Positions 28,567 to 64,000 of a DNA stretch of 64,000 bases are shown piece after piece; positions within the stretch are counted from its first letter, which is position 1, and each line of letters begins with the position of its first letter. A program made the position numbers and the translations under genes. The notes under the pieces are model-generated. The model was not told where the DNA came from. It searched no databases and worked only from the letters and a program-made list of their open reading frames with translations. Source of the DNA: Basidiobolus meristosporus CBS 931.73 (taxonomy: Eukaryota; Basidiobolomycota; Basidiobolomycetes; Basidiobolales; Basidiobolaceae); the NCBI GenBank assembly GCA_002104905.1, contig MCFE01000398.1, forward strand, positions 17,676-81,675. The letters run 5' to 3'.

Positions 28567-31020
28567 TCAGTTCAAGGATGCCAAGTATTCTTGGTGAAGT
28601 TTCTTCTGGTTCTCGAACTCCTTGGTCAGCTTCTTGCGACGGCTTTTTGGCAGCTCTTCTCCGTTGATATCATGAGTGGGGAATCCCTAAAAAACGCTCG
28701 ACCAGTTAGCACGGGGCATATCTCGTTTGGAGTCACATGTGCTTACCTCTTCGTCGTATTGACCGAACAATCCCTGGTATTCGCCCTGCTTGAACATCAC
28801 TTCGGGGGCCAACTTACCCTTGGCGAGCTTTTCTTGACGCTTGAGCTCTTGGGCCTTCTGGAGAGCGGCTTTCTTGGCCGCCTTCTCCTGCTCTCTTTGC
28901 TTCTTGAACTCTCTGGCGCGGATGAGTTCCTCGCGGTCCACGAGCTTGACCAAGGCTCTGCCATCCTCTTGGTCGTCAAGGGCAACTCCCAGCTCCACCA
29001 TGTCGTCGTCACGAAGCTTGTCGCTTAGAACCAAGAACTCTGAGTGAGGCTTCTGGTTTCTGGCCATCTCGCGAACGTTGTCACGGAATCTGGATAGGGA
29101 ACGAAGATAAGGCATCACCATTTCTTCGGCGTTAGCAACCCCTTGACCGGAGGAACCGAAGCCGATCAATTGACCGTCATCGGCAAGTCCGAATGACTTC
29201 ATGATACGAGTGATGTACTTGGCGATCTTCTCCACCACTGGCACGTTGATCTTGTTACGGCCGGCAGAAATGTAGATGTTGGTCTTGTTAATAAGATCAA
29301 GCAGCTCTTGGATCGCGTCAGGAGTGTTGATGGAGTCACAGAGAGCGGCGTGAACCTTGCCCTGCTTTTCGCTGAGATAGGCCAGCATGTCTCTTTCGGC
29401 GTCACGGAAACGGTGGGTGCCGTCGGATTCACTGGCGTGAAGGCGATACTCTTGGCTCAGTGCCTTGACATTGGCGAAGAAGTTGTTGAAGCCGGATTCG
29501 ATGCTGACTGCCTCGTTCATGGAGCTGATCTTGTAGTCGATCTTGCTGTCCCACTGATGAAGCAAAAAGAACAGACGGAGCTGCCTGGCGGTGTACTTCT
29601 CAAGGGCCTCGCGAATGGTGATGAAGTTCTTCAAAGACTTGGACATCTTTTGTCCTTCGATGTGCAAATGTCCAGGATGAAGGAAGTAGTTGACCCATTG
29701 CTTGCATCCATGATAGGCCTCGGATTGGGCGAGTTCGTTGTCGTGATGTGGGAAAGCAAGATCAATTCCGCCAGAGTGAATATCCATGCATTGGCCTAAC
29801 ACTTCACTTGCCATTACTGAGCACTCGATGTGCCAGCCAGGACGGCCTTCGCCCCAAGGCGAGTTCCAAGCAGGCTCGCCTCTCTTGGATTTCTTCCAAA
29901 GGGCGAAATCGGAGGGATTCTTTTTGCCGGTGAGTTTTGCTCCGAGCGAGCCTTCACCCTCTTCGGTCAAAGCGGTGTTTCCAGCGGACCATGGCTGGAG
30001 CTTGGCATAGTAGTGCTCATCGTGGCCATCGAAAGCAGCGGTATCAAAGTACACGGAGCCATCAGCCTCGTAACCATAGCCATTGTCGATGATCTTCTGG
30101 ACATACTCGACAATCTCGGGCACGTACTCACTGACTCGAGTCAAAACATCACAGGGCTTCACGTTCAAAGCCTCCATATCCTTCATGTACTCACTTTCCC
30201 AGTGGGCGGCGAGGTCACGGAACACCTTGGGATCGGTGACCGAATCTCCCTTCTCCTTGTCCAACCAAGCAGAGACGACATCTTGCGAGGCATCCAGGAG
30301 CTCGTCCGCCGACTCTTTGGTCTTATCCCCGCCACTCAACGACTGCTTGGCCTTTTGGATGGCGTGGTAGGCACCTTTGATGGAAGTGAAATTCATGGGG
30401 AACTTGGGATCAGCGTCGGTGATTTCTTTAGCAGCAACCTTGGCTTCAAAAGCAGCCCAGTTTTTGGCAACTTCCGCGTCCAGATGACCAAACTTTGAGG
30501 TGGCATACGCTTCCCAGGCGGCTTGGACTTGCTCGATCACTTGCTGCTCCAACTGCTTAACTGAGGCTTTGTAAGTATCAAACAAGTGGTTTTGTCTGGC
30601 ACGAAGGATGATCTTGTCGTCAATATCCGTGATATTCATGACAAAGAGTACATCGAAGTTGAAGTAATCTTCCAAGATTCTTCTCAGAATGTCGATGGTG
30701 AGGTAAGTTCTGGCGTGGCCCATGTGAGAGGCATCATAGACGGTGGGTCCGCAGTTGTACCAAGTCAGGGTTTTTCCCGCCTGTGGGATAAGCTCGACCT
30801 TGCTTTTGGTCAGCGAGTTGTAGAGAGAAAGGACCGGCTGCTCGGGCTTTTGGGGGGTGAGCCACTTTGGGAGTGGTCTACCGGTGGAAGTGGTGGTACT
30901 CATTTTGGATAGCTGAACGTTTAGCCGTAACTGGGTTTTATAGGCCCGAGGTTTGAAGGAATGCAAGCTATAAAGTCGTGGGGAACTTCGCGAAAGGCTG
31001 CGAAATATAATCGAATTCAT
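28567..31020 (-). CDS. CRS1: Cysteinyl-tRNA synthetase, probable dual-targeted
   Basis: Class I aminoacyl-tRNA synthetase charging tRNA-Cys. CGPTVYDASHMGHART contains the first Zn ligand and the HIGH motif. WHIECSVMA and GIDLAFPHHDNE complete the Zn/substrate site, and EGQKMSKSLKNF is the KMSKS loop. One intron (28746-28687) near the 3' end joins ..QYDEE to GFPTHDINGEELPKSRRKK, the usual C-terminal tail, ending at 28567. Two starts are plausible. ATG 31020 gives a 39-residue Arg/Ser/Leu-rich, acid-free leader (MNSIIFRSLSRSS..) like a mitochondrial presequence, and ATG 30903 (MSTTTSTGRPLPKW) gives the cytosolic form. Yeasts make both forms from one gene, so alternative starts are likely here. 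Confidence 0.93.
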
Positions 31021-44707: not shown

Positions 44708-44742
44708 GCGGGACATCCTAATTAATGATTGGAGTGTCCCGC
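44708..44742 (+). promoter_or_regulatory. Perfect 8-bp inverted repeat upstream of sugar transporter 1
   Basis: GCGGGACA (44708-44715) and TGTCCCGC (44735-44742) are exact reverse complements around a 19-bp AT-rich centre containing ATTGG (a reverse CCAAT). It sits just upstream of TATAAATA at 44758-44765. A CGG..CCG pair suits a zinc-cluster regulator, though the spacing is wide. Also present in unit 2. Confidence 0.5.
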
Positions 44743-44757
44743 AAGGCAAATCCCAGG

Positions 44758-44765
44758 TATAAATA
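44758..44765 (+). promoter_or_regulatory. TATA box of sugar transporter 1
   Basis: TATAAATA, 54 bp before the ATG at 44819. It lies only 13 bp before another in-frame ATG (44771), which is therefore probably not transcribed. Confidence 0.6.
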
Positions 44766-44818
44766 TCTCCATGACGCCTAACTTGCCAACCATCCACAAC
44801 TACTACTCTACTACTAAA

Positions 44819-46282
44819 ATGCTTGGTCGCTCTACCAAAGAGGCAAAAACCTCCAATGACTCCTCACAGGCCGGGTTCTCGTTCTATACTGTCATGTGCG
44901 TCTCAATCGCCTGCCTTGTCTCGTTCAACAATGGGTGGAACACTTCCGATACCAATATTATCCAATCATCCATCATCGAGTGTGAAAACCCTGACGAGAA
45001 ATTCAATGGCTTTCCAAGTTGCTTCCCTATGGGTGACTGGCTTTGGGGCTTTGCAGTAAGCAGCTTCTCCATCGGCGGCGCTATCGGGGGGCTTTCGGCC
45101 GGGTGGTCTCAAGCGAAGTTCGGACGTCGCAACTCTCTTCTATTCAACAACATTTTCTTCATCGTTGGCGCCTTGCTTCTTGGACTCTCGAAGAACAAGG
45201 GGACTTGGATTGTCGGTCGTTTCTTTACCGGGATCGGCTCAGGATTCGGAACCGTTGTTCTGCCTACGTATATCGGTGAAGTCTCCACCACCAGAGTCCG
45301 AGGTGCGTACGGTGCTATGACACAGCTTACCTGTGTGATTGGACAGTTGGTGACTCAGGCCGCCGGCCTCGGTCTGTCGAGCAGGGTGGGCTGGCGTATC
45401 TGCATGGCACTTACCGGAGCCATTGCCATTCTCCAACTGGTGACACTGTCCTTCATCACTGAAACGCCCCGCTACTACATTTCCAAGGATCGGATCGACG
45501 ATGCCGAAAAGTCGTTACTCAAGCTCCGCAAAGGAATGGATGTCACCAATGAACTCCAAACCATGGTGGACGCGCGTGCAGAGGCCAAGGTCAACGGAGA
45601 GCAGACATCAATCGTGGACGGGTTCAAGTTCATCATGCGTGACTCGTTGACTCGTAAACATGCCTTCATGTGCATGTTCCTTTGCGTGATCCAGCAGCTT
45701 TGCGGCATCAACGGGATCATGTACTATTCCACCTCGATCTTTACCTCCATCTACGGCAACAAAACCGCGCAGTATCTCACAGTTGGCGTCGGTGCTATCA
45801 ACCTGTTGGCGACGATCGTCACTATCCTGCTGATTGATCGAGTTGGACGAAAGTTCCTTGTGCTACTCAGTCTTGCCGGGATGGCATCCTTCAATGTCCT
45901 GATGATCATTGGTATCGAGTGCGACGATTCAGGCCTTGTGATTCTGGGGTTGTTCGCGTTTGTTGTGTCATTTGCACTCGGTATGGGGCCCATTCCGTTC
46001 CTGATCATTTCGGAGCTTATCCCTACCCGAGCTGTCTCCACAGTTGCATCCAGTGCCCTCGGGCTCAACTGGCTGGGCAACTTTGTGGTTGGATTCTTCT
46101 TCCCATCGTTGAAGAACACCATGCACGGGTATGTGTTCTTGATCTTCGTGGGATGCTGTATTGCCGGGTTCGTCGGGGTCCTGTTCTTCTTACCTGAGAC
46201 TAAGGGGCGTAGCATCGAGGAGATCACTGGCCACGGGAGTAACAGTGCGACTACCAACGAGCCCAAAATTAGCCAGAACTAA
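44819..46282 (+). CDS. MFS sugar (hexose-type) transporter, copy 1
   Basis: 487 residues, intronless, twelve predicted helices. Sugar-porter signatures: FGRRNSLLFNN after helix 2, ETPRYYISKDR after helix 6, QQLCGINGIMYYSTSIF in helix 7, DRVGRKFLV after helix 8 and PETKGRS at the C-end. The extracellular loop after helix 1 is fairly long (residues about 45-75) with two Cys. It most resembles GLUT-like/fungal hexose facilitators of the plasma or vacuolar membrane. The substrate is not determined. The start was chosen by the TATA box position. The last residues of the copies differ (..SQN versus ..SQH). Confidence 0.9.
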   Translation: MLGRSTKEAKTSNDSSQAGFSFYTVMCVSIACLVSFNNGWNTSDTNIIQSSIIECENPDEKFNGFPSCFPMGDWLWGFAVSSFSIGGAIGGLSAGWSQAKFGRRNSLLFNNIFFIVGALLLGLSKNKGTWIVGRFFTGIGSGFGTVVLPTYIGEVSTTRVRGAYGAMTQLTCVIGQLVTQAAGLGLSSRVGWRICMALTGAIAILQLVTLSFITETPRYYISKDRIDDAEKSLLKLRKGMDVTNELQTMVDARAEAKVNGEQTSIVDGFKFIMRDSLTRKHAFMCMFLCVIQQLCGINGIMYYSTSIFTSIYGNKTAQYLTVGVGAINLLATIVTILLIDRVGRKFLVLLSLAGMASFNVLMIIGIECDDSGLVILGLFAFVVSFALGMGPIPFLIISELIPTRAVSTVASSALGLNWLGNFVVGFFFPSLKNTMHGYVFLIFVGCCIAGFVGVLFFLPETKGRSIEEITGHGSNSATTNEPKISQN

Positions 46283-53652: not shown

Positions 53653-53687
53653 GCGGGACATCCTAATTAATGATTGGAGTGTCCCGC
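53653..53687 (+). promoter_or_regulatory. Inverted repeat upstream of sugar transporter 2
   Basis: GCGGGACA..TGTCCCGC, unchanged from unit 1, followed by the same TATAAATA. Exact retention is expected from recent duplication and so adds little independent support. Confidence 0.45.
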
Positions 53688-53763
53688 AAGGCAAATCCCA
53701 GGTATAAATATCTCCATGACGCCTAACTTGCCAACCATCCACAACTACTACTCTACTACTAAA

Positions 53764-55227
53764 ATGCTTGGTCGCTCTACCAAAGAGGCAAAAACCTCCA
53801 ATGACTCCTCACAGGCCGGGTTCTCGTTCTATACTGTCATGTGTGTCTCAATTGCCTGCCTTGTCTCGTTCAACAATGGGTGGAACACTTCCGATACCAA
53901 TATTATCCAATCATCCATCATCGAGTGTGAAAACCCTGACGAGAAATTCAATGGCTTTCCAAGTTGCTTCCCTATGGGTGACTGGCTTTGGGGCTTTGCA
54001 GTAAGCAGCTTCTCCATCGGCGGCGCTATCGGGGGGCTTTCGGCCGGGTGGTCTCAAGCGAAGTTCGGACGTCGCAACTCTCTTCTATTCAACAACATTT
54101 TCTTCATCGTCGGCGCCTTGCTTCTCGGACTCTCGAAGAACAAGGGGACTTGGATTGTCGGTCGTTTCTTTACCGGGATCGGCTCAGGATTCGGAACCGT
54201 TGTTCTGCCTACGTATATCGGTGAAGTCTCCACCACCAGAGTCCGAGGTGCGTACGGTGCTATGACACAGCTTACCTGTGTGATTGGACAGTTGGTGACT
54301 CAGGCCGCCGGCCTCGGTCTGTCGAGCAGGGTGGGCTGGCGTATCTGCATGGCACTTACCGGAGCCATTGCCATTCTCCAACTGGTGACACTGTCCTTCA
54401 TCACTGAAACGCCCCGCTACTACATTTCCAAGGATCGGATCGACGATGCCGAAAAGTCGTTGCTCAAGCTCCGCAAAGGAATGGATGTCACCAATGAACT
54501 CCAAACCATGGTGGACGCGCGTGCAGCGGCCAAGGTCAACGGAGAGCAGACATCAATCGTGGACGGGTTCAAGTTCATCATGCGTGACTCGTTGACTCGT
54601 AAACATGCCTTCATGTGCATGTTCCTTTGCGTGATCCAGCAGCTTTGCGGCATCAACGGGATCATGTACTATTCCACCTCGATCTTTACCTCCATCTACG
54701 GCAACAAAACCGCGCAGTATCTCACAGTTGGCGTCGGTGCTATCAACCTGTTGGCGACGATCGTCACTATCCTGCTGATTGATCGAGTTGGACGAAAGTT
54801 CCTTGTGCTACTCAGCCTTGCCGGGATGGCATCCTTCAATGTCCTGATGATCATTGGTATCGAGTGCGACGATTCAGGCCTTGTGATTCTGGGGTTGTTC
54901 GCGTTTGTTGTGTCATTTGCACTCGGTATGGGGCCCATTCCGTTCCTGATCATTTCGGAGCTTATCCCTACGCGAGCTGTCTCCACAGTTGCATCCAGTG
55001 CCCTCGGGCTCAACTGGCTGGGCAACTTTGTGGTTGGGTTCTTCTTCCCATCGTTGAAGAACACCATGCACGGGTATGTGTTCTTGATCTTCGTGGGATG
55101 CTGTATTGCCGGGTTCGTCGGGGTCCTGTTCTTCTTACCTGAGACTAAGGGGCGTAGCATCGAGGAGATCACTGGCCACGGAAGTAACAGTGCGACTACC
55201 AACGAGCCCAAAATTAGCCAGCACTAA
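53764..55227 (+). CDS. MFS sugar (hexose-type) transporter, copy 2
   Basis: 487 residues with all sugar-porter motifs. Only two residues differ from copy 1 (ARAEAKV to ARAAAKV and final Asn to His), although there are scattered silent changes. The contrast with 11 changes in the neighbouring 329-residue protein suggests purifying selection or recent gene conversion. Same start logic as copy 1. Confidence 0.9.
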   Translation: MLGRSTKEAKTSNDSSQAGFSFYTVMCVSIACLVSFNNGWNTSDTNIIQSSIIECENPDEKFNGFPSCFPMGDWLWGFAVSSFSIGGAIGGLSAGWSQAKFGRRNSLLFNNIFFIVGALLLGLSKNKGTWIVGRFFTGIGSGFGTVVLPTYIGEVSTTRVRGAYGAMTQLTCVIGQLVTQAAGLGLSSRVGWRICMALTGAIAILQLVTLSFITETPRYYISKDRIDDAEKSLLKLRKGMDVTNELQTMVDARAAAKVNGEQTSIVDGFKFIMRDSLTRKHAFMCMFLCVIQQLCGINGIMYYSTSIFTSIYGNKTAQYLTVGVGAINLLATIVTILLIDRVGRKFLVLLSLAGMASFNVLMIIGIECDDSGLVILGLFAFVVSFALGMGPIPFLIISELIPTRAVSTVASSALGLNWLGNFVVGFFFPSLKNTMHGYVFLIFVGCCIAGFVGVLFFLPETKGRSIEEITGHGSNSATTNEPKISQH

Positions 55228-60060: not shown

Positions 60061-61106
60061 CTAGCCCTCTGATTTATACTTCCACCAAGACCTGGAATAG
60101 CAGTGAGAATATTCCCGGGAGAAATCGTGAGTGTATATTTGAAGACAAGGGTTTTATAACTCAAATTTCATCTCACGCTATTCGGAGAAGAAACCAAAAT
60201 AAATGCGAAGTCACTGAGAATTTACATTCATCAGTACAGAGTCACCAAAGAAGTCTTGTTCTACCATAATACTGTTGTATAATATTCTGAAATAATTCTT
60301 GTTGATGAAATACGACTACATCCTACATGAAGAGTGAGCATAAGTGCAAATATGCTGACAAGATATTCCAGTTTACATTCCTCCATTTCTTGGTAACTAG
60401 TTGATGATATAGTGATTTTTGTGAGAGGACCGTAAATTTCACTAAACAATATTGGCCTGCGCTTCAATTTATTCCCAGACCTATATTTCATTTGCTTTAT
60501 TACTCACAGCTGAATTAACTGAAACTAGAAGCTGGTGTGTCGGTGCTATCTTGTGCTCCGGTGAAGTATGTAATTATGACACCAAAGAAGCTTGAAAAGA
60601 GGGCACTTACATAAGTAATTCTTAGTTAATGACGTCAGATTATTCCATAATAATATCTAGAGTAAAACAATACGTATTTAGCGGTCAGATTGGTATTTGT
60701 TAACGAATCAACCAAAGTCCAGTGAGGGTGAATGTCATTCGATTATGATCTTAGTTTTAGTGTTGGGGTTAGGGCCAAGGTTGAAGGAGAGCACCACCAC
60801 CAGCAAGTGATTATCCTCACATTTTCATGCTTGTAAACGGAAATTGTCCTTTACAAATTGGCATAAAATTTTTATTTAGTTTGTCCAAATTATACATCCC
60901 AAAACGATTACCAGGCAGGATTACCAGGCAGGATTACTAATCAATTGAAAGTACCTCAGAGATGCAAAAGATGTGAGGAATGGAGGGATTGGAGGATTGG
61001 AGGATTGGAGGGATGGAATATAAAATGATATGTCATGCCAATCAGTTGTGAATTCCCCCATTACACATTTGCTTCTGCACCTGAATCCTTGGTTTCGATA
61101 TGACTG
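60061..61106. other. Gene-free AT-rich subtelomere
   Basis: Only short frames without domains. Contains a short direct repeat (ATTACCAGGCAGG x2 near 60908-60935) and the minisatellite at 60981-61016. Confidence 0.45.
60981..61016 (+). repeat. Minisatellite, GGAGGATT-type
   Basis: About four and a half copies of an 8-9 bp GGAGG(G)ATT motif in tandem. G-rich strand is the same as the telomere. Confidence 0.7.
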
Positions 61107-61191
61107 TTAGGGGGAGGAAAGTCACCAAGTGGTGAAATCTTTATTTACTTATGACAAGTATCTAAAGAAGCCATGTTAATCTGAAGTAATT

Positions 61192-61310
61192 CCTAGAAAG
61201 CTAGGTCTGAGAGATATCTTCCTGGTAAGCCAGGTCTGAGAGGTGAGAGGCTGAGTGGTACTATATTTCCTAGTTAGCTAGGTCTGAGAGAGGTTTCCTG
61301 GAAAGCCAGG
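61192..61310 (-). ncRNA. Four-hairpin array in the SINE body
   Basis: Four 14-nt palindromes: CCTAG-AAAG-CTAGG (61192-61205), CCTGG-TAAG-CCAGG (61221-61234), CCTAG-TTAG-CTAGG (61269-61282), CCTGG-AAAG-CCAGG (61297-61310). Each is followed by a TCTGAGA-like spacer. A:T and G:C alternate at the same stem position with both sides changed, a compensatory pattern pointing to RNA structure. Hairpins 1+2 and 3+4 form two tandem units about 76 bp apart. Confidence 0.6.
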
Positions 61311-61559
61311 CCTGAGAAGTGAGAATCTGAATATATCTGAGCTAAGTTATACTGGTTTGCGGTAGCTGAATTGTGGCTGGAATGGCCAGTAGACTGGGGG
61401 AACTGAGATGAATTTCTGGGCGATCACTGGCCAAATTTACTAGGCAAATCTGGCCAATTAGCATTTCAAGGATTTCAGCCAATCAGAGCCTTTACTTTGC
61501 CCGATGGTTGATCAAGCCATCTCCCAATGAGCACACATCAATTTATTGATCAAATTTTG

Positions 61560-61630
61560 CTGGATCCAGGATTTGAACCCACAACCATGGGTATGGAAGG
61601 GTTAGGGATAACCACAAGGCTAAGTGTTCT
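61560..61630 (-). other. tRNA-like promoter head of the SINE
   Basis: Box A and box B are separated by about 32 nt. Between them lies CCCTAACCC (61607-61599), a telomere-like 9-mer, and the self-complementary CCAT-ACCC-ATGG. It does not fold as a canonical tRNA, so it is a SINE head and not a tRNA gene. Confidence 0.6.
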
Positions 61631-61633
61631 TGG

Positions 61634-63770
61634 TTAGGGGGGAGACAGTCACCAACAGGTGAAATCTTTATTTCAGTTGAAACAAAGAAGCCAGCGCTAC
61701 TGTTGTAGCTTTGATACAAGAGTGTGTAGCTGAGGGGAATTTGTAGGTAAGTTAATAAGAAGTGATGATAGTTCTTCAGTGCTCAAGACACTGTTCAGTG
61801 GGAAGGGGGGTAGCAAGAGAGGTAAGAATGACTTGTGAACAACATTAATGAGGGGAATGTGATAAGGATTGATATTCATCATAAAGGGAGTGTGCTGCTG
61901 CAGATATTGCTGCCAAAGGTCTGTCAAGTACTTCAGGTAGGCCAGCTTGGGTTTTTCTGACTGCAGAATATAGTGTGCAAACTTCTTGACTTCAGGATCT
62001 CCAAGTATAGTTCTCCAGCACGAGTCAGGTGTTGTGTGGTGTGTTCTCTTCCAGGCCTTAATCAGTGGGTTGTTGCAGTTGTGAAGTCTGAGGTATAATC
62101 TGGTTCTAAGGTAGAGAAGTCTGATCTTATAGGGCATAAACCCAAAAGCACCAAGAATAGCATGTCTGTAGGGGCATTCAGGCAAATGAGGCACCAAGGA
62201 GGTAATGCACCATACTGCAAACTTGTCAAGCTTAGTGCAGTCTCTAGAAGTAAGAGAGAGAAGTGGTAAGCCAAATTCCAGGACAGGGAAGACAAACTGC
62301 TTGAGTAGAAGGAGGCAGCTGGGAGCTGAAGTTGTAGGAGGAGTAACAGCCAGTAGCTTGTGGAGTGCCTGTCTTGCCAGGATAATTCTCTTCTTCAGGT
62401 GTGCTCCAGAGTCTAGTCCAGTAGGAAGGAAAGGAAAGCCAAGATATGTAGCAGAAACCTGAGCAGGTAGAGTGGAGTTCTCCAAGTTGATAGGAGAGCC
62501 CAAAGGTACTGTCTTTGCAATGGAAAGCTGGAGATTATTCTTCTGCAGATACTGCTGGATGGTCTGGGAGTCTTGTTGCACATTGGAGGAGGATATTCTG
62601 ATGTCATCAGCAAAGAGAGTAACCAGGCAGTCAGCTGAGAGTCTTGGGAAGTCATTCAGGAAGATGGCAAACAGTATAGGACCAAGCACAGAGCCTTGAA
62701 CCACTCCATTAGGAACTGAGAACACAGCTGATTGCTCACTTGGGTGCAGAATTCTTGCTTGTGGATCCAGAAACAGAGACCTGACAAGGAGGGTGAGAGA
62801 GGTACTGGAGAAGCATTGCAACTTGGACCAAAGCAGATTTCTGTCAACTGAATCAAAGGCCTTAGTAATATCAAACAGAACAGAGGGATACTTGCACTGG
62901 AGAGAGTGATCTTGGCTAAGTATGACTGCATATTCCAAGGAGAGGCCAGGAACAAAGCCAAACTGTGCAGGATGAAACTTGAGGGAGTCAGAGTAGAGCT
63001 CCTGAGCAAGCAGAAGCTCAAACACCTTTCTGCAGGTGGGCAGCAGAGATATTGGCCTGTAGGAGCTAGGATCCAGGTGCTTTCCTTTACCCTTGTACAG
63101 TGGCAGAACATTTGCAAAGGACCATTCCTCAGGAGTAGAAAGCTGGGCTGAGCATTGCTGAAACAGTGGAAGCAGAAGTGCAGACATGGCCTTGGTACTA
63201 GTCTTCAGAAGCTCATAAGAGATTGTGTCCACACCTGGAGCAGTAGAGTTGGGAAGCCTCTTGAGCACATTTTGGATTCTCCTTTGATCAAGTGCAAGTG
63301 GGATGGGCAGAGTCTTGAAGTCAGGATGAAAGCCAGGAGTTGAGTACTGCTTTGTAGAGAAGAAGATGTTAGCCAGCTGTTCTGTTGAAGGTAACTTCCT
63401 GGAAGAGGGCCTCATTGCCCTGTAGAGTCTTGATACTGTTCTTGTTATAGAGTTGGAAGATTGCAGAGGCAAAGAACTCATAATATGATCCCAGAGCTGA
63501 GTATGCAGAGTGTGGTGAATTGCCTTGTAGTGGTGTATTGCTGTCAGGAGGAGTTTCTCTGTTTTTGGGTTAGGGAAACTCAGGTAGCTTTGTTGCAGGG
63601 CTGAAACAATGGATTCCCATTTTCTTGAGGTAACAGCAGTAGTCTTGCATGGCAGTGAGAGGGAGGCAGACACCAGAATCAGATGCTTCACAAAGAGCCA
63701 GGCATAGTTGAGATCATCTGGCAGAGAAAGTAGCAAACTGGCAAGCTTCAAGTAGTTCCCAAAGTCTTTC
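61634..63770 (-). mobile_element. 5'-truncated LINE directly joined to the telomere
   Basis: On the minus strand, coding sequence comes first, then a short 3' UTR with AAATAAAG, hairpin TCACC-TGTT-GGTGA (61662-61649) and a terminus CTCCCCCCTAAC at 61642-61633. The 5' end is missing: at 63770 the coding frame meets telomeric repeats. The 3' end faces the centromere and the 5' end faces the telomere, the orientation expected if the telomeric 3' end primed reverse transcription. Confidence 0.8.
61697..63770 (-). CDS. LINE reverse transcriptase, N-terminally truncated
   Basis: At least 684 uninterrupted codons. Motifs in order (numbered from the codon at 63751): APGVDTISYELLK (171-183), YKGKGKHLDPSSYRPISLLP (219-238), AQFGFVPGLSLEYAV (262-276), LFDITKAFDSVDRNLLW (292-308, catalytic Asp), VPNGVVQGSVLGPILF (346-361), LFADDIRI (379-386, catalytic Asp pair). 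All catalytic Asp are present. No endonuclease is visible: an N-terminal APE domain would be upstream and lost, and no CCHC or restriction-like endonuclease motif is seen in the C-terminal 250 residues. There is no ATG at the left end; the frame simply stays open into the telomere. The absence of stops suggests recent insertion. Confidence 0.88.
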
Positions 63771-64000
63771 TTAGGGGTTAGGGTTAGGGTTAGGGTTAGG
63801 GTTAGGGTTAGGGTTAGGGTTAGGGTTAGGGTTAGGGTTAGGGTTAGGGTTAGGGTTAGGGTTAGGGTTAGGGTTAGGGTTAGGGTTAGGGTTAGGGTTA
63901 GGGTTAGGGTTAGGGTTAGGGTTAGGGTTAGGGTTAGGGTTAGGGTTAGGGTTAGGGTTAGGGTTAGGGTTAGGGTTAGGGGTTAGGGTTAGGGTTAGGT
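63771..64000 (+). repeat. Telomere, (TTAGGG)n
   Basis: An almost perfect array of about 38 units, G-strand 5'->3' toward the right edge. It starts with one TTAGGGG unit at 63771-63777 and has another four-G unit near 63978-63981. It marks the physical chromosome end. Confidence 0.98.

Follow-up and report, generated by a model that had tools for sequence, protein, structure and literature searches.

The window analysed here, a stretch of 64,000 nucleotides (nt) from the fungus Basidiobolus meristosporus CBS 931.73, is the end of a contig (C644), and the final 2.9 kb of its + strand consist, in this order, of subtelomeric DNA, a full-length short interspersed nuclear element (SINE), a truncated long interspersed nuclear element (LINE A) and a (TTAGGG)n telomere array (Table 1). 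The + strand reads GTTAGGGGGAGGAAAGTCACCAAGTGGTGAAATCTTTATTT at 61106, in the SINE, and GTTAGGGGGGAGACAGTCACCAACAGGTGAAATCTTTATTT at 61633, in LINE A. The tails of the two elements are 88% identical across 41 nt, and BLAST finds nothing else shared between them, the single match being 42 nt long. The arrangement described in the first-pass annotation, with two elements head to tail beside the telomere, in one orientation and with a common tail, is thus borne out by the window sequence. Its further claim that both tails end alike holds for their layout, but TAAC follows a stretch of six C in the LINE tail, the C-run (G-run on the other strand) is not constant among copies, and a telomere unit is missing from 12 of the 149 junctions described below. 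The fragment of the second open reading frame (ORF2) of the window LINE contains a reverse transcriptase (RT) domain (RVT_1, E 4.9e-26). No Rfam family matches within 60-64 kb of the window.

Table 1. Positions of the window features and, in the last two rows, of the stop codon that separates both reading frames in other LINE copies
Feature	Position	Strand	Remarks
SINE, full length, 527 nt	61106..61632	-	5′ end 61632, 3′ end 61106; subtelomeric DNA adjoins on the left
SINE 3′ tail: AAATAAAG, hairpin, C-run, CTAAC; + strand GTTAGGGGGAGG...	61106..61146	-	sequence; predicted RNA fold, z -2.35
SINE tail hairpin TCACC/GGTGA	61122..61135	-	predicted RNA fold
B-box-like sequence GGTTCAAATCC, SINE head	61569..61579	-	pattern match
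A-box-like sequence TAGCCTTGTGG, 43 nt ahead of the B box	61612..61622	-	loosened pattern only; stricter A-box pattern fails
LINE A copy, 5′-truncated, ~2,138 of ~4,570 nt	61633..63770	-	3′ end 61633 abuts the SINE 5′ end
LINE A 3′ tail, laid out as the SINE tail, six C then TAAC	61633..61673	-	predicted RNA fold, z -3.58
LINE A tail hairpin, TCACC/GGTGA repeat	61649..61662	-	predicted
LINE A ORF2 fragment, RT domain and C-terminal part	61697..63770	-	endonuclease part removed by truncation; 922 aa in other copies
(TTAGGG)n telomere array	63771..64000	+	caps the truncated 5′ side of LINE A; first TT common to the intact element
Cysteinyl-tRNA synthetase gene, 100% identical over 95% of the query to that of B. 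meristosporus CBS 931.73	28690..30951	-	
TGA between ORF1 and ORF2, LINE A	L034:4334-4336; L061:1302-1304		
TGA between ORF1 and ORF2, LINE B	L034:655-657		

Tails, orientation and junctions at chromosome ends

The genome assembly (89,006,234 bases in 1,311 contigs) was searched with the tail core carried by LINE A and the SINE, GTCACCNNNNGGTGAAATCTTTATTT, and with the same core read backward as a control. A total of 1,127 exact matches were found (1,047 on the + and 80 on the - strand), 904 of them (847 + 57) preceded by TTAGGG at a distance of 0-12 nt, whereas the control gave 0 in both cases. Many more copies than the two of the window are present at chromosome ends. Their placement was followed in the first 100 exact tail matches in contig order, which map to 36 contigs. 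In the 15 contigs longer than 50 kb, all 36 sampled tails point to the nearer contig end, which lies at most 18.3 kb away and, for 33 of the 36, less than 10 kb away. Considering all 100 sampled tails, the contig end in the direction of the element 5′ end is reached after 3.5 kb (median) and at the latest after 18.3 kb, although for the other 64 this value is little informative because their 21 contigs measure ~20 kb or less, and the informative part is that of the 15 long contigs. A majority of internal copies devoid of TTAGGG, the pattern that would speak against telomeric attachment, was not seen where the contigs are long enough for such a test.

The element-5′-side ends of the 36 sampled contigs carry telomere arrays in 23 cases (15 of the 21 short contigs and 8 of the 15 long ones). 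Among the contigs C1-C90, 12 show an exact 150-nt telomere run among the matches listed, and 11 of these 12 carry the tail, as compared to 15 of the remaining 78 (Fisher p 1.8e-6), 7 of which end in less perfect telomere arrays. A contig of 312,558 bp (C424) starts with CCCTAA repeats followed by a SINE and ends with a SINE followed by TTAGGG repeats, both SINEs facing outward. The abundance of short element-bearing contigs (21 of 36 at ~20 kb or less, 15 of them telomere-ended) looks as if chromosome ends varied between nuclei or alleles. The tail, the orientation and the junctions of these elements are seen in the sequence itself, and the three traits that distinguish telomere-specific non-long-terminal-repeat (non-LTR) retrotransposons, which are chromosome-end copies, a single orientation and a telomeric 3′ end, are all found here.

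Four element families and their coding capacity

The first-pass annotation regarded the window as holding a LINE/SINE pair. Both elements are real, but the tail is carried by four families or more, since LINE B and a gag-only element C join LINE A and the SINE, and a simple pair is thereby ruled out. A LINE A copy in contig C191 measures ~4,570 nt, with a 523-codon ORF1 frame containing clustered cysteines, a TGA and an in-frame ORF2. The latter is 922 aa long in most copies and is open across this length in 16 of 22 stretches, two of the remaining ones running off the locus. The 5′ untranslated region (UTR) of LINE A (L061, ~2881-2895) holds AACCCTAACCCTAA, two telomere-like units within the element. 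LINE B follows the same plan, with an ORF2 of 949 aa that is 47% identical to that of LINE A; after scoring 48 of 1,278 candidates, 50 of 52 among the matches listed have their 5′ end rightward and the other two lie near left contig ends, and 14 of the 52 listed are full length and free of internal stops. Element C was found in four loci (L049, L011, L018 and L009), with a stop-to-stop frame of 271-276 aa that resembles the ORF1 of LINE A (163 aa aligned at 34% identity, E 3e-19). Its pieces reach up to 1,365 nt, with the tail placed after the ORF1-like frame, which leaves no room for an RT. An ORF1-like protein, no RT and a LINE 3′ tail make it a HeT-A-like gag-only element, whose tail, allowing at most one mismatch, gives 243 genome matches (215 + 28) and 0 for the control.

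With regard to the SINE, at least 60 matches of at least 514 nt and 96-100% identity were obtained, window copy included, after scoring 40 of 441 candidates. Its head matches a B box and, by the loosened pattern, an A box, ARAGORN calls no tRNA there, and nowhere in the 527 nt of the element do four or more T follow one another. As with other SINEs, its 3′ tail is common with that of a partner LINE. The body of the element (61187-61319) contains four copies of a 28-nt imperfect repeat. In the LINE B reference the SINE gives a match of 99 nt, which we interpret as a decayed copy lying between LINE B and LINE A. The tails of all four families are predicted to fold into two stem-loops followed by the C-run, the first an A/U-rich stem with CUUU/AAAG near its base and the second formed by UCACC/GGUGA. 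Shuffled versions folding at least as well were 1 of 200 for LINE A, 5 of 200 for the SINE and 0 of 200 for LINE B.

The predicted structure of a relative shows an APE-type endonuclease fold, and its RT aligns with those of LINE-1 and R2; an N-terminal APE endonuclease and an RT are found on a single ORF, as in APE-type LINEs. The structures listed in this comparison include the R1Bm and TRAS1 endonucleases. A search of the PDB with the single endonuclease stretch gave no match. The APE domain retains the GDxN and SDH motifs, yet the column of the active-site Glu is Asp in all four focal sequences that cover it, as against Glu in 11 of 11 outgroup rows. Attachment may accordingly be independent of the endonuclease, as the first-pass annotation considered, or may still rely on it, and a dead endonuclease was rejected, as just one inspected column differs. 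Membership in the CRE/MoTeR type was rejected as well: besides the APE fold, the CCHC and RHD/N motifs of restriction-like endonucleases occur in none of 7 sequences, some of them partial, and the lone [RK][PA]D match, a stray one, falls within the N-terminal domain of P0001 (residue 145). A telomeric Penelope-like element, with a Penelope RT and no APE domain, was likewise discarded given the APE fold and the alignment of the modelled RT with LINE-1 and R2. In an RT tree of 60 rows obtained with a short search, LINE A, LINE B and P0001-P0005 form a clade of 7 (Shimodaira-Hasegawa-like approximate likelihood ratio test, SH-aLRT, 100; branch 2.11). No clade name is given to these LINEs because of long-branch warnings and the few named neighbours in the tree, which has no labelled R1 RT.

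In both LINE families, a lone TGA with CTA after it interrupts the common frame of ORF1 and ORF2. The resulting hexamer, TGACTA, was present in 29 of 29 matches of LINE A and in 2 of 2 of LINE B, counting loci that overlap. The ORF2 frames show no Met ahead of the first endonuclease motif. UGA CUA is a leaky stop context, and ORF2 is predicted from the sequence to be made by stop-codon readthrough from ORF1. The genome contains a TERT RNA-binding domain (C880; two adjacent matches over the cut-off, one with an internal TAG), and the lack of telomerase typical of the HeT-A/TART system therefore does not apply to this fungus.

Farther from the chromosome end, the window harbours a catalase-like gene, recognised by eye, at ~57-59.5 kb, and two near-identical frames of 517 aa (44729-46282 and 53674-55227), sugar-transporter-like by eye, which lie on one strand near the telomere. 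The frame pair suggests a recent duplication.

Junctions and the mode of attachment

From the loci gathered, 151 distinct 3′ junctions were extracted, of which 149 could be parsed. The number of telomere units between flank and element is 0 in 12 of them, 1 in 89, 2 in 34 and three or more in 14, as compared to 10-33 units in the final 200 bp of the sampled telomeric ends. A single TTAGGG may be either templated by the RNA or the remnant of a short telomere, and both fit the data. The acceptors were a SINE 5′ end in 29 junctions, which makes the 5′ end of the window SINE a recurring boundary, a LINE A 5′ end in 4, and broken copies of LINE A (37), SINE (11) and LINE B (8), whereas 60 flanks match none of these three families, some of them being element C. 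At broken acceptors the intact sequence is known, which makes it possible to measure how far they overlap the telomere register. The 34 usable ones out of 56 show a mean overlap of 2.09 nt, versus 0.48 nt for random breakpoints; 31 of the 34 overlap by at least 1 nt (mean of 10.9 and maximum of 19 in 1,000 simulations) and 24 by no fewer than 2 nt (mean of 4.0 and maximum of 11 in the 1,000 simulations). Keeping two gapped alignments (L007 and L038) would give 36 junctions and an inflated mean of 2.47. The 5′ truncation is variable and reaches tail-only pieces, of which five distinct ones of 13-43 nt remain once three 7-nt rows, too short, and the pieces listed twice are left out, and the elements are stacked head to tail with their 5′ ends telomere-ward. 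Regarding the terminal arrays, their 17 distinct starts map to the full SINE 5′ end (3), to LINE A (6, one almost at the 5′ end and another, L100, an unused artefact that matched the telomere-like stretch of the 5′ UTR), to truncated element C (3), to truncated SINEs (2) and elsewhere (3).

Altogether, the shared 3′ tail probably works as a telomerase-like template, from which the RT of the LINEs would copy the elements outward from exposed or eroded chromosome 3′ ends. The process would start with an element RNA ending in CCCCCUAAC, whose C-run or CUAAC would pair with the 3′ end of an exposed or broken chromosome. The DNA end itself would act as the primer, with little or no need of endonuclease cleavage, and the LINE RT, supplied as ORF2 through UGA-CUA readthrough, would extend the paired end outward, often giving a product that is cut short. 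LINE A and LINE B proteins would recognise the tail and also mobilise the SINE and element C in trans. Finally, the new end would be re-capped by telomerase, a TERT RNA-binding domain being present in the genome. As the first-pass annotation had proposed, we infer the overhang priming and the SINE riding on LINE machinery. The use of LINE enzymes by the SINE and by element C is deduced from a common tail and a common place at chromosome ends. Priming from the end is favoured because one-unit junctions, scattered broken acceptors with short overlaps and tail-only pieces all fit it.

The main rival is an insertion by endonuclease cleavage, of the kind proposed for MoTeR and TRAS/SART. Short tracts of TTAGGG would be cut by the APE domain close to their base, reverse transcription would be target-primed at the cut, and the one TTAGGG left would represent the target and not the template. 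Cleavage of a short telomere fits many of the same facts; however, the junctions that lack any telomere unit, the tail-only pieces, the acceptors broken at scattered sites in older elements with a short overlap in the telomere register, and the Asp in place of the conserved Glu make such a pathway less likely. Spreading of a subtelomeric array between chromosome ends by break-induced replication could in turn mimic repeated attachment, and both the identity of the listed copies, mostly 96-100% as exchange between ends predicts, and the recurrence of certain junctions across several contigs would agree with it. Nevertheless, the number of distinct 3′ junctions (151), the 60 of 149 flanks without a match to either LINE or to the SINE, the variation in 5′ truncation and C-run, and the fact that the SINE and the LINEs have the tail alone in common render recombination a rather improbable origin. 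As for a mis-joining of reads from many similar elements at contig ends, which the share of contigs of ~20 kb or shorter (21 of 36) and of sampled ends without telomere (13 of 36) could indicate, it is hard to reconcile with the uniform facing of the 36 tails toward the nearer end of long contigs, with a contig that is telomeric at both ends, and with an ORF2 that is open over its full length in 16 of 22 stretches of LINE A and in 14 of the 52 LINE B matches listed, and an assembly artefact seems highly improbable.

Several points weigh against priming by the chromosome end and against its strictly terminal setting. The evidence consists of genomic DNA sequence, and the APE domain, being retained, could still direct targeting by cleavage. 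The 12 junctions without a telomere unit imply that CUAAC is not always copied, and the microhomology at broken acceptors would be equally expected had telomerase healed the break first; moreover, 22 of the 56 broken junctions were excluded from that measurement, two for gapped alignments and the rest because they do not form a clean telomere string. The sampled ends without telomere arrays include 6, out of 13, that by eye break off inside element sequence, opposite contig ends were examined in C27, C80 and C424 only, and the tail pattern selects near-consensus copies, so that decayed internal copies may be missed. In the case of the tail itself, the one C-G to G-C swap in stem 1 between LINE A and LINE B/C was read by eye on a predicted fold. 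The variable G-run before the tail (mode 6 and range 3-12 in LINE A; mode 5 and range 3-9 in the SINE) fits slippage, but homopolymer sequencing errors too.

Known telomeric elements and biological meaning

The comparisons with published systems that follow refer to portions of the papers cited. The MoTeR1 and MoTeR2 elements of Magnaporthe oryzae form head-to-tail telomeric arrays, MoTeR2 being a non-autonomous element with both ends common to MoTeR1 (PMC7367193), and the FoTeRs of Fusarium oxysporum are fungal telomeric non-LTR elements with ~3-8 TAACCC at their 3′ ends (PMC12857005). The Basidiobolus elements resemble both in being fungal non-LTR elements whose 5′ side, subject to truncation, points to the chromosome end and whose 3′ end carries telomere repeats, and they share with MoTeRs the head-to-tail arrays and a non-autonomous partner. 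However, MoTeRs and FoTeRs bear a C-terminal restriction-like endonuclease instead of an N-terminal one of the APE type; MoTeR2 is not described as a SINE in the portion cited, whereas the Basidiobolus SINE has only the 3′ tail in common with its LINEs; and mostly one TTAGGG plus a G-run is found here in place of the several FoTeR repeats. In Drosophila, which lacks telomerase, HeT-A, TART and TAHRE are assumed to attach to the 3′ OH at the tips of the chromosomes (PMC4700185). The gag-only HeT-A would be comparable to element C and the gag-pol TART to LINE A/B, but Basidiobolus has TTAGGG arrays and a TERT domain, and no SINE is named in the corresponding part of that paper. The TRAS and SART elements of the silkworm are APE-type LINEs that reside in telomeric repeats beside telomerase repeats (PMC10088271), as in Basidiobolus; these insect R1 families insert into telomeric repeats, whereas the acceptors described here are often broken elements with one unit.

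Certain SINEs share their 3′ tail with stringent LINEs, and such elements insert at internal sites. The structured tail common to LINE and SINE is also seen in Basidiobolus, whose sampled copies sit instead at chromosome ends. Attachment at telomeres is also shared with further systems, which either belong to a different RT class or are an effect seen with mammalian L1. To our knowledge, neither of the latter has a SINE partner. Recognition of their own 3′ tail by stringent LINEs has been described (PMC4176376), and the text of PMC8381367, in the part available, mentions no SINE. Neither a telomere-dedicated SINE nor a telomere element of Basidiobolus was found in the open-licence literature searched, a result that carries no implication for print at large.

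A broader and more tentative proposal, to which we give somewhat less than an even chance, is that of a telomere guild. Its members would be two autonomous LINEs of the APE type, with ORF2 made by UGA-CUA readthrough, together with the gag-only element and the SINE, the head of which would be tRNA-like. Their RNAs would all end in a telomerase-template-like sequence, a C-run plus CUAAC preceded by two hairpins, and side by side with telomerase they would attach to chromosome ends that are naked or broken and heal them. The SINE might then be the first one dedicated to telomeres, working practically as another type of telomerase RNA for which a LINE provides the enzyme. If true, this would be a natural case of LINE enzymes that, in a telomerase-like manner, serve several RNAs at DNA ends by means of one tail with the telomere motif, and it would indicate that dedication to telomeres is within the reach of a SINE, that gag-only and gag-pol elements split in a HeT-A-like manner in a fungus bearing telomerase, and that APE-type LINEs reached fungal telomeres separately from the CRE/MoTeR lineage. 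The short tail is open to in vitro work and the many natural junctions of this genome could inform about the healing of broken ends, in whose rebuilding at the tips of the chromosomes these elements would take part.

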